Below, in pieces: positions 52,364 to 55,480 of a DNA stretch of 64,000 nucleotides (position 1 is its first letter; the number at the start of each line of letters is the position of its first letter). Under the pieces are notes generated by a model, which saw nothing but the letters and a program-made list of their open reading frames with translations, had not been told where the DNA came from and ran no database searches. Origin of the DNA: Nostoc sp. NMS2 (GTDB taxonomy: Bacteria; Cyanobacteriota; Cyanobacteriia; Cyanobacteriales; Nostocaceae). Where the stretch lies: positions 1-64,000 of the forward strand of contig NZ_JABXKH010000064.1 of the NCBI RefSeq assembly GCF_017115105.1, written 5' to 3'. The position numbers were made by a program, and so were the translations under genes.

Positions 52364-52391
52364 AAAGTGGGTAGATGCTTCTATCCACTTT
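52364..52391 (+). terminator. Terminator after pilA
   Basis: AAAGTGGGTAGA (52364-52375) and TCTATCCACTTT (52380-52391) form a 12-bp stem with one wobble and a TGCT loop, followed by ATTTCC. It lies 51 bp after the pilA stop and 62 bp before the ogtA ATG, so it probably reduces read-through from the strong pilin promoter. Confidence 0.7.
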
Positions 52392-52452
52392 ATTTCCATT
52401 ATGTGAGTCGTTCACAATTAGATTACTCATAAAATTTTCTCAGAGAATTACA

Positions 52453-54672
52453 ATGATTACTGATATATATAATTGGCAAAACCAAGCTGAACAATACTTG
52501 ATTCAAGAAAAATATTCGCAAGCAGCACATTTATACGAACAAGCAATAGCAATAGAACCAAATGCTATTTCTTATTATTGGCATTTAGGACTACTATTGC
52601 TATTACAAGGGCAAGAAGCAGAAGCTCAAATGACTTGGATATTGCCAATGACAGAGGCAGATGAAGAACAGTTAAAAATCTGGACTAATGAACTATTTAA
52701 AGTTTTACAAATAGAAGCTGAAAGGCGTGAAACACTTGCGGAATATTCTCTAGCTTGGTTAATTCGCCAACACATGCGGGAAATTAATCCTAGTTATATA
52801 AATAATTTGCTTCAAATTATTATACTTTCTATCAAATTGGAAAAATTTGAAGAAATTGATAATTTGAATGAGTGGGGATTAATTGAAAGCTTAAACGCAA
52901 AAGAAAATCTAGAAATCGATCTCGAATTATTAATCCAAATTTTAAAAGAATTTTTAAATACTGTTCCTTTACATCCAATAAATCTAAATTTAATAGAAGC
53001 TAGTCTTCCTTATTTCTCTGATACTGACCAATGCTTCTCTATAGTGCTCCCTGCTGCTATCCAAATTGGTCATACTTTGCGGCAGCCTGTAGTAGCAGCA
53101 TCTCTACTAGAATTGCATTTACGATTGCAGCCAGATAATGTAGAAATTTTGCGGCACTTAGCAACTTTTTATCAAGATGCTCGTAATTATTCTCAAGGAA
53201 TAGAGACAGCTAGGTTGTGTTATTCTTTATCAGAAGGCTTGGCTGATAAAATTTTTGCCCTCCATTTGCTGCTAAGAGGTCTAATGTCAGCAGGGGGATA
53301 TTGGCAAGAGATATGTGCAACTTGTCAAGAATTAGAAACTGTATTTCAAGAGTTTATTAAAGCTCAACGAATTCCTTTAGAAGAAGGAAGAATATTACGG
53401 TTGCTTACGCCATCTTTTGCGATACCTCACATTAAAGATGCTCCTGCTGATTTCAGAGCTATTCATAACAAGGTAGCTGAGATTTTTAATAATTATATTC
53501 AAGCTTTTGCCCAATCAAAAGGAAAAAAATATTCTCACAAAATTATTAAGAATCGAGATTTATCTTACCCTAATAAGAAATTAAAAATTGGTTATATCTC
53601 TTACGTTTTCAGGAATCATTCTGTTGGTTGGCTAGCTCGCTGGTTATTTCAACATCATGCTCGAGATAAATTTGATATTTATACCTATTTTGTGAACTAT
53701 CAATTAGTAGATGATTTACTACAAGATTGGTATGTAAACAATGCGGGTAAGGCTCGTAAATTAGGTATGAATGGTCTAGAAATTGCTGAACAGATATATC
53801 AAGATGAAATTGATATTTTAGTTGACCTTGATAGCATCACCCTAGATATTACTAGTGAAGTGATGGCACTCAAACCAGCCCCAATTCAAGTTACTTGGTT
53901 GGGGTGGGATGCATCAGGCATACCTGCAATTGATTACTTTATCGCAGATCCTTACGTACTGCCAGATGATGCACAAGATTACTATACAGAGAAAATCTGG
54001 CGATTACCTCAAACTTACATAGCAGTAGATGGTTTTGAAGTTGGTGTACCAACTCTCCGCCGCGATGAATTAGATATTCCTATGGATGCCGTTGTATATC
54101 TCAGCGCCCAAAGAGGATATAAACGCCATCCAGAAACGACAAAGTGGCAAATGCAAATTATCAAACAAGTACCTAACAGCTACTTTTTGATTAAGGGGTT
54201 TGCTGAGGAGGAAACAATTAAACGCTTCTTTTACCAAATTGCCGAAGAAGAAGGTGTAGATTGTTCTCGGTTACGATTTTTACCAATAGTTTATTTAGAG
54301 TCAGTTCATCGTGCTAATTTAGGCATTGCTGATATTGTATTAGATACATTTCCCTACAACGGAGCGACAACAACCTTAGAAACATTGTGGATGGGTATCC
54401 CTTTAGTAACGCGAGTCGGCGAACAGTTTGCGGCTCGTAACAGCTACACCATGATGATGAATGCGGGTATCACAGAAGGCATTGCCTGGAATGATGAAGA
54501 GTATGTAGAGTGGGGTGTGCGCTTGGGGAAAGATGAGGCTTTACGCCAGCAAGTCGCTCTGAAGCTGAAAGCATCGCGGCAAACAGCACCGTTGTGGAAT
54601 GGCAAACAGTTTACCCGTGAAATGGAAAAGGCTTACGAGCAGATGTGGCAAAAGTATATTGAGGCAAAATAA
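52453..54672 (+). CDS. ogtA: SPINDLY-type O-GlcNAc transferase, OgtA-like
   Basis: From ATG 52453 the protein has 739 residues. N-terminal TPR-like helices (WQNQAEQYLIQEKYSQAAHLYEQAIAIEPN, residues 5-35 onward) precede a GT41 region: KLKIGYISYVFRNHSVGWLARWL, APIQVTWLGWDASGIPAIDYF, LDIPMDAVVYLSAQRGYKRHP, and IVLDTFPYNGATTTLETLWMGIPLVTRVGEQFAARNS. In Nostoc punctiforme ogtA is needed for hormogonia, motility and accumulation of PilA. The adjacency to pilA supports the same role. The upstream M at 52375 lies in the terminator and is rejected. Confidence 0.88.
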   Translation: MITDIYNWQNQAEQYLIQEKYSQAAHLYEQAIAIEPNAISYYWHLGLLLLLQGQEAEAQMTWILPMTEADEEQLKIWTNELFKVLQIEAERRETLAEYSLAWLIRQHMREINPSYINNLLQIIILSIKLEKFEEIDNLNEWGLIESLNAKENLEIDLELLIQILKEFLNTVPLHPINLNLIEASLPYFSDTDQCFSIVLPAAIQIGHTLRQPVVAASLLELHLRLQPDNVEILRHLATFYQDARNYSQGIETARLCYSLSEGLADKIFALHLLLRGLMSAGGYWQEICATCQELETVFQEFIKAQRIPLEEGRILRLLTPSFAIPHIKDAPADFRAIHNKVAEIFNNYIQAFAQSKGKKYSHKIIKNRDLSYPNKKLKIGYISYVFRNHSVGWLARWLFQHHARDKFDIYTYFVNYQLVDDLLQDWYVNNAGKARKLGMNGLEIAEQIYQDEIDILVDLDSITLDITSEVMALKPAPIQVTWLGWDASGIPAIDYFIADPYVLPDDAQDYYTEKIWRLPQTYIAVDGFEVGVPTLRRDELDIPMDAVVYLSAQRGYKRHPETTKWQMQIIKQVPNSYFLIKGFAEEETIKRFFYQIAEEEGVDCSRLRFLPIVYLESVHRANLGIADIVLDTFPYNGATTTLETLWMGIPLVTRVGEQFAARNSYTMMMNAGITEGIAWNDEEYVEWGVRLGKDEALRQQVALKLKASRQTAPLWNGKQFTREMEKAYEQMWQKYIEAK

Positions 54673-54676
54673 GCTC

Positions 54677-54733
54677 GTAGTGAGGACTTTAGTCCTCAAA
54701 ATAGATGTTAATAAGGGCTAAAGCCCTTACTAC
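54677..54733. repeat. Convergent REP pair beside the RAYT gene
   Basis: GTAG (54677-54680) with stem-loop TGAGGACTTTAGTCCTCA (54681-54698), then TAAGGGCTAAAGCCCTTA (54712-54729) with CTAC (54730-54733). It lies 4 bp after ogtA and 5 bp before the RAYT stop and may end both transcripts. Confidence 0.85.
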
Positions 54734-54738
54734 GAACA

Positions 54739-55371
54739 TTAAAAATTATCCCAGTCTTTGCCATAATCTTGTACTGGATACTGAGTCCAAGAATCACGCA
54801 GCCATTGCCGTCCACAAGCTTGTAAATACCAGTGAACACTACTTTCAACCCAGTCATAAGGAGATTTGACTAAACCATGTTTAACTGGGTTGTAATGAAT
54901 ATAGTTAACAGTTGTATAGTAATGTCTTTCCGAGCGAATAGCGCGATCGCTCCAACGATACCAAATTTTTCTCTTAGTTACATTGTCTTCTATATTCCAC
55001 CGGCGAGAAACTACACCATGTATTCTGCGAAACAAGTCACCTAATACATCAAAATTTTCAACATAAACCAATAGGTGATAGTGATTAGGCAAAATAACCC
55101 AAGCACATATTCTTAAGTTTGTAGTGAGCGCTTCAGCGCTCGTCTCTTCATTTCCACTCACACCAAACCTATCAAAAACCATATCTAGCAATTGCTGACG
55201 ACGGGATTCAGTGTGTATATGACACTGATGCTCGTAACAAGCTGCTGTTAATAAATAAAATTGCTTATCTTGCACAGGATGTGGTGGAGAGTGGGGTGGA
55301 TAACCCTGCCTTAAGCGATATTTAACTAGTTCAGCTTTTTGCTCTGTTGTGAGCTTGCGATATTCATACAT
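54739..55371 (-). CDS. REP-associated tyrosine transposase (RAYT), Y1_Tnp domain
   Basis: The 210-residue protein has the HUH motif LPNHYHLLV (His97, His99) and YIHYNPVKHGLV with the probable catalytic tyrosine at 157, as in RAYT/TnpA-REP proteins, which nick single-stranded REP hairpins at a GTAG foot. An insertion of about 15 residues (SGNEETSAEALTT, residues 72-84) just before the HUH strand is encoded by a REP hairpin in the same orientation as the repeats flanking the gene. Both ends of the gene carry REP units, the usual context of RAYTs. The reading frame is intact, so the protein may be active. Confidence 0.92.
   Translation of the reverse strand: MYEYRKLTTEQKAELVKYRLRQGYPPHSPPHPVQDKQFYLLTAACYEHQCHIHTESRRQQLLDMVFDRFGVSGNEETSAEALTTNLRICAWVILPNHYHLLVYVENFDVLGDLFRRIHGVVSRRWNIEDNVTKRKIWYRWSDRAIRSERHYYTTVNYIHYNPVKHGLVKSPYDWVESSVHWYLQACGRQWLRDSWTQYPVQDYGKDWDNF
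55121..55142. repeat. REP hairpin inside the RAYT coding sequence
   Basis: GTAG (55121-55124) followed by TGAGCGCTTCAGCGCTCG (55125-55142) has the same layout as the flanking REPs (compare TGAGCGATTTATCGCTCA at 1900). It encodes residues 77-84 (TSAEALTT) of the transposase in frame. Confidence 0.85.
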
Positions 55372-55378
55372 ATATTTT

Positions 55379-55480
55379 TAAGCACTAAAGTGCTTACTAC
55401 AAACAATTCAAAAGTTCGTAGTGAGGACTTTAGTCTTCCTCCTTTGAAATGATAAATTTAAGCACTGAAGTGCTTACTAC
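55379..55480. repeat. Three REP hairpins upstream of the RAYT gene
   Basis: Units lie at 55379-55400 (stem TAAGCACTAAAGTGCTTA then CTAC), 55418-55439 (GTAG then stem TGAGGACTTTAGTCttC, slightly decayed) and 55459-55480 (TAAGCACTGAAGTGCTTA then CTAC). The last ends 4 bp before the stop of the 1562-residue gene, probably serving as its terminator, and the first starts 8 bp upstream of the RAYT start. Confidence 0.85.

Follow-up and report, generated by a model that had tools for sequence, protein, structure and literature searches.

The RAYT (TnpAREP) gene present in a 64,000-nucleotide stretch of the genome of Nostoc sp. NMS2 (contig NZ_JABXKH010000064.1, positions 1 to 64,000; from here on, the window) contains within its own reading frame a repetitive extragenic palindrome (REP), one of the small DNA hairpins that this kind of enzyme is thought to spread. 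By comparing the homologous genes, we have shown that the rest of the inserted segment has drifted while the pairing of the hairpin has mostly been kept, even as its letters and its loop changed. We consider it likely that the REP became fixed in a RAYT gene that is still under selection and persists there as a tolerated relic, with template switching, perhaps helped by some selection, keeping its pairing at the DNA level. The in-frame insertion of a REP in a RAYT gene is already known, and what has been newly traced here is its history and its ageing.

A REP in the reading frame of the RAYT gene

The in-gene REP (Table 1) encodes residues 78-84 (SAEALTT) on the minus strand and also covers the last base of codon 77. 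It fits the pattern of its family exactly and has the GTAG foot, the palindrome and the many copies that characterize a REP. When the pattern GTAGTNAGNNCTNNAGNNCT was searched allowing up to one mismatch, seven matches were found in the window, six of them at the RAYT locus, and as 0.00 matches are expected in shuffled sequences, a chance palindrome is ruled out. For the in-gene copy as single-stranded DNA, the predicted fold is a hairpin of 6-7 pairs with a 4-nucleotide loop at -6.8 kcal/mol (z -2.58; 3 of 200 shuffles were equally good). This search confirmed what a previous sequence-only reading had noticed, that is, GTAG-footed hairpins on both sides of the gene and one inside it, and the assignment of the latter to residues 77-84, in frame, was right to one codon.

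The same reading had proposed that these residues are an insertion, and the alignment of homologues agreed with it: residues 70-84 replace three residues, a net gain of 12, immediately ahead of the HUH strand. The segment is absent from the closest insert-less homologues and the frame is kept. A version of about 15 residues was present in homologues named Nostoc, Desmonostoc, Komarekiella, Westiellopsis, Dolichospermum and Anabaena, and the 3-residue version in Plectonema, Hassallia, Rhizonema, Planktothrix, Chloroflexota and others; the insert is shorter in locus L017 and longer in L135. In total 109 genes were read, 43 of which had the insert motif (26 distinct), and L135 and L136, missed by the motif, and L143 were added to give 29 distinct insert-bearing rows. 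L142, which has a stop upstream, was used only downstream of it, and L143 is partial, with HYY instead of HYH; the full-length tests (fourfold sites, covariation and the ratio of nonsynonymous to synonymous polymorphism, pN/pS) were carried out on the 27 rows without these two. We excluded L046 and L059, which carry the insert but are frameshifted, L057, L062, L064 and L076 because of stops or a frameshift, and the truncated L072 and L083.

A tree of 47 rows was built with the insert columns removed and 18 insert-less rows picked from a larger number, leaving L148 and L155 unplaced. The 29 insert-bearing rows formed one side of a 100/99 branch against the 18 chosen insert-less rows. Furthermore, the convergent gene that is the left neighbour of RAYT (52375-54672) was matched, with 67-95% identity and within ~2 kb of the RAYT gene, in 27 of the 28 other insert-bearing loci; the exception was L134, whose other neighbour matches the other neighbour of the window (68%). 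No match to gene 52375-54672 was found in the insert-less loci L020, L021, L022, L026 and L145, the flanks of L026 and L145 being short. Because the insert-bearing genes form one clade and share the same neighbour gene, these comparisons make it most likely that a single, old insertion took place and was inherited at one locus, and a recent insertion is ruled out since the insert is clade-wide. In Desmonostoc muscorum FACHB-395, a RAYT remnant matching residues 12-53 (L083, 2001-2126) was found near the same neighbour gene (93%), and the RAYT gene seems to have been lost there at the shared locus.

Drift, pairing and loop inversion

The pN/pS ratio was 0.973 for residues 70-77 versus 0.262 for residues 78-84, and synonymous change in codons 78-84 was hardly reduced (0.366 versus 0.403). 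The stem places the third base of S78 opposite that of A81; both positions are synonymous, and they form a Watson-Crick pair in 25 of the 27 full rows. As a control, we compared the 1176 pairs drawn from the 49 third-base columns that vary in other parts of the gene, among which none was at 25 and the largest value was 23; none reached 25 under any letter mapping either. Over the six inner pairs of the stem in 29 rows, 164 of the 174 cells were Watson-Crick, and the ten that were not comprised seven G-T wobbles on the GTAG strand only, no wobble in the mRNA and three cells that were neither.

Codon 80, in the loop, is GAA, TCA, AAA or TTA (E, S, K or L), with the stem-closing third base being A in 29/29 rows. 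Loops GA and TC are reverse complements of each other, and so are AA and TT. On the best tree there were five such loop flips, four GA/TC changes and one AA/TT, and the same number was obtained in the 300/300 bootstrap trees looked at. Passing from GA to TC takes two transversions, and the intermediate is either GCA, which none of the 29 rows has, or the stop codon TAA. Moreover, between the sisters L008 and L010 the loop flip is the sole multi-base change of 16 codon differences. Loop inversion and homogenisation of the arms have been presented as outcomes of template switching in replication (PMC8794818; PMC8604942), and the cases in those papers have the same signature, a loop turned into its reverse complement between arms that stay complementary; they are described for RNA genes and yeast coding sequences, in passages that make no mention of REPs. 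Template switching would explain both the loop flips and the kept pairing without selection.

According to the explanation that we favour, one GTAGTGAGCGCTTCAGCGCTC-like REP inserted in frame, ahead of the HUH strand, in a common ancestor of the insert-bearing genes, and those with the insert in Nostoc, Desmonostoc, Komarekiella, Westiellopsis, Dolichospermum and Anabaena are its descendants. The protein tolerated the 12 extra residues, stayed under purifying selection and was inherited at one locus, as the alignment, the tree and the neighbour gene show. The palindrome would fold while the DNA is replicated, and a switch of template from one arm to the other may re-copy an arm from its partner and flip the loop, so that a near-perfect hairpin persists. 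It is conceivable that selection on the strand bearing the GTAG foot, if RAYT recognises it as a site, also plays some part.

Several observations weigh against this explanation. The covariation of pair 78/81 depends on few events in the tree (4 changes), and L004 and L014 have a mismatch there. An inner stem pair is broken in L007, L015 and L019 (3/29), whose genes are still open, and the outermost pair is Watson-Crick in just 14/29 rows, so that the hairpin is not strictly kept. The fifth loop flip, in L134, is less clean, as L134 and L141 have 64 codon differences, 15 of them multi-base. In L135 the double change A79T and A81V retains the palindrome and gives an in-gene core equal to a REP subtype found elsewhere in its genome, and it is possible that this hairpin was copied from another REP. 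Finally, the peptide itself could be what is conserved, SAEALTT being kept by selection as a structural part of the protein; this would fit the lower pN/pS of residues 78-84 and the serine found at position 78 in 29/29 rows. We regard this last possibility as unlikely, given that residue 80 switches among four amino acids while its third base remains A, that L135 changes two residues jointly yet keeps the palindrome, and that the purely synonymous pair 78/81 covaries. The sequence-only reading had named homologues with the same residues lacking the hairpin as evidence against its own view; these were found in L007, L015 and L019 only, and in the other 26 of the 29 rows the six inner pairs are Watson-Crick or depart from it just by a wobble on the GTAG strand.

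The GTAG foot and possible functions of the hairpin

The GTAG foot is present in 29/29 rows. The third base of codon 83, which is synonymous and lies in the foot, is T in 27/27 full rows, and L136 retains the foot despite a T83S change. Two of the five fourfold columns of the insert were invariant versus 2 of 53 outside it, which is suggestive only, since many sites are strongly biased. The constant foot and the wobbles, biased to one strand, would be compatible with recognition by RAYT, and the hairpin might then be a functional element in cis by which the enzyme cuts, represses or mobilises its own gene, selection keeping foot and stem. We find this rather improbable: the seven wobbles correspond to about five independent events versus none, which is thin (p ~0.03, calculated by hand) and could be due to mutation bias, the foot is CTAG in the frameshifted L046, the inner pairs are broken in three open genes, and the flanking REPs might make the in-gene site redundant. 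It is also doubtful that the in-gene REP is a domesticated self-target. RAYT would then recognise the GTAG hairpin, which lies opposite the message strand of its gene, and this contact in cis would have preserved foot and stem since the clade arose, either by limiting expression or by marking the gene at the fork, in genomes where most other REPs belong to other subtypes.

Our analysis does not demonstrate any regulation of the RAYT gene by the in-gene hairpin. The special "feedback design" suggested by the sequence-only reading did not find support either, as in-frame REP insertions in tnpAREP genes were already published (PMC6006769), the insertion is ancestral to the whole clade, and L007, L015 and L019 have remained open despite their broken inner pair. 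The same reading had suggested that the hairpin moderates the mRNA. The predicted RNA fold of the surrounding 91 nucleotides does contain the hairpin, but many shuffled versions of this context fold just as well (z -0.76, 37 of 200 equally good) and none of the ten inner-pair departures is a G-U pair in the mRNA. A role in stability, pausing or translation of the message is thus little supported and, in our opinion, very unlikely.

Stem subtypes and REP turnover

The pairing could also have been preserved if the hairpin had been repeatedly re-copied from other REPs of the genome, by gene conversion or re-insertion, as the in-gene core of L135 would allow. Exact matches to the GCGC stem found in the gene of the window, counting the in-gene copy where it fits the pattern, represented 4/57, 3/108, 5/101, 5/133 and 1/96 of all exact REP matches in five insert-bearing genomes, and none of 119, 20, 118 and 181 in four others. 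This stem is rare among the other REPs of four Nostoc genomes (3-5 of 57-133). In 8/8 carriers searched (G196, G201, G203, G211, G208, G047, G054 and G199), the GTGC stem, the T-A version of pair 78/81, was matched exactly a single time, within the RAYT gene, so that this version arose in place; there were four matches elsewhere in G173, whose in-gene stem is broken, and none in G041. The rarity of GCGC and the confinement of GTGC to the RAYT gene largely reject copying from other REPs as a general cause, and we consider it highly improbable.

In three relatives judged to lack the insert, by sequence for G078 and by match length for G079 and G178, the GCGC subtype accounted for 135/350, 73/175 and 37/79 matches. 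Furthermore, a GTAGTGAGCGCTTCAGCGCTC REP, of the same subtype as the in-gene one, lies directly after the gene in the insert-less L021, L022 and L026 and in the frameshifted L057. We infer that REPs have turned over after the insertion and that the in-gene copy retains an older subtype in the Nostoc group.

The RAYT gene and its REPs

The protein of the window scored 80.5 bits (cutoff 80) against NCBIfam NF047646 (REP_Tyr_transpos) and matched the TnpArep structure PDB 4er8 (E 8e-9), and its score for Pfam Y1_Tnp was 15.9, under the cutoff of 23. It has the HUH motif and a single catalytic tyrosine in a Y---NP context, and it is flanked by GTAG REPs of a kind dispersed in the genome, as expected for a RAYT. 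Residues H97, Y98, H99, N156, Y157 and N161 showed no variation across 63 aligned RAYT sequences, and D142, R143 and R146, conserved in at least 90% of them, aligned with E100, H101 and R104 of E. coli TnpAREP (numbering from PMC6006769). W137-Y138 fits the published W[YH] motif, at a place where the alignment with 4er8 is gapped. Outside the insert pN/pS was 0.233, a constraint similar to that of the hairpin codons (0.262), and this value together with the invariant catalytic residues indicates that the enzyme has stayed under purifying selection. Two remoter RAYT-like matches are present in the same genome (L002 and L003, partial alignments with 45% and 39% identity), and strong RAYT matches (E 1e-60 or better) are patchy in the family, occurring in 44 of 217 genomes.

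Table 1. Features of the RAYT locus in the window
Feature	Position	Strand	Description
Convergent neighbour gene	52375..54672	plus	left neighbour of RAYT
REPIN 3' of RAYT gene	54677..54733		two inverted GTAG REPs, 54677+ and 54714-
RAYT / TnpAREP gene, 210 aa	54739..55371	minus	HYH motif H97-Y98-H99; Y157 in NYIHYNP
Inserted segment, residues 70-84	55120..55164	minus	3 residues in insert-less homologues; net +12 codons
In-gene REP	55121..55141	plus	GTAG foot and perfect 7-bp palindrome with 2 bases at its centre
Three GTAG REPs 5' of RAYT gene	55379..55480		55381-, 55418+ (1 mismatch), 55461-

Genome-wide, the REP pattern gave 87 matches with up to one mismatch versus 9 for a reversed-pattern control, and 57 versus 0 when only exact matches were counted, in agreement with the suggestion of the sequence-only reading that the family is tied to GTAG hairpins; as a palindromic REP can match on both strands, these correspond to fewer places than matches. 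Among the first 30 of the 87 matches in contig order (L087-L116), several of which record the same REPIN twice, once per half, or the same palindrome on either strand, only that of L101 fell in an open reading frame of at least 120 amino acids. This REP (~1500-1520) is close to the start of a frame of 416 amino acids and may precede its true start. Exact matches per genome were 20-181 in ten insert-bearing genomes, 6-350 in four with an insert-less RAYT and 10-112 in six without a RAYT match at E 1e-60; since these ranges overlap, we draw no claim about activity from them. In Anabaena sp. FACHB-1237 (L019, 1698-3221), tandem inverted REP pairs with a period of ~103 bp flank the RAYT gene on both sides, and GTAGTAACGACTTCAGTCGTT hairpins form 35-bp head-to-tail arrays upstream of insert-less RAYT genes (L023, 1755-1930; L024, 1807-1947).

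Relation to known systems

In-frame REP insertions within tnpAREP genes have been published by Quentin et al. 2018 (PMC6006769), including "some" of subclass 2.8. According to that paper, subclass 2.8 is cyanobacterial, has the motifs NHYH, W[YH] and YIHYNP and a proline-rich N-terminus, and is flanked by long GTAG REPs, as is the gene of the window, whose protein carries PNHYH, WY, YIHYNP and the N-terminal GYPPHSPPHPV and, compared by eye rather than with a hidden Markov model, fits this subclass by its motifs. The passages of the paper devoted to subclass 2.8 do not state where or when the REP inserted, and describe neither the evolution of the hairpin nor an inversion of its loop. In subclass 2.4 a REP is likewise placed in frame within the tnpAREP gene itself (PMC6006769), but the insertion of the window lies before the HUH motif, whereas a second site described below does lie after it. 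Intragenic GTAG REPs have also been described in many other genes (PMC3733652), where GTAG/CGTC REPs and the palindromic elements of Rickettsia (RPEs) are similarly small palindromes in frame in protein genes; the host genes in the parts of that paper concerned are of other kinds, many of them for DNA repair, and the cognate transposase is not named among them. No title or abstract opening among the papers listed describes an in-gene REP with an inverted loop or covarying bases, which is not proof of absence.

A second insertion site and significance

A second in-frame REP or REPIN site, after the HUH strand, was observed in RAYT genes of other cyanobacteria. It holds an inverted REP pair in L044 and L150 (L044, 2001-2678), a single REP in L049 (2001-2594), and a two-REP insert with some feet altered in L033 and L146 (L033, 2001-2645), L147, L148 and L149; L151 has an apparent decayed remnant, and there is no such insert in L028, which comes from the same region of the tree. 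Members of this RAYT family have thus received in-frame insertions at two different sites.

REPs within genes are usually treated as passive decoration. In this case, one insertion can be traced through at least 29 distinct genes at an apparent single locus, with the protein frame serving as a clock. As its pairing mostly survives while the flank drifts and the loop flips, it offers a natural setting in which to ask if template switching is sufficient by itself to preserve a DNA hairpin. Moreover, because its stem subtype is rare elsewhere in the Nostoc genomes counted, the in-gene hairpin may serve as a marker of REP turnover in these cyanobacteria.
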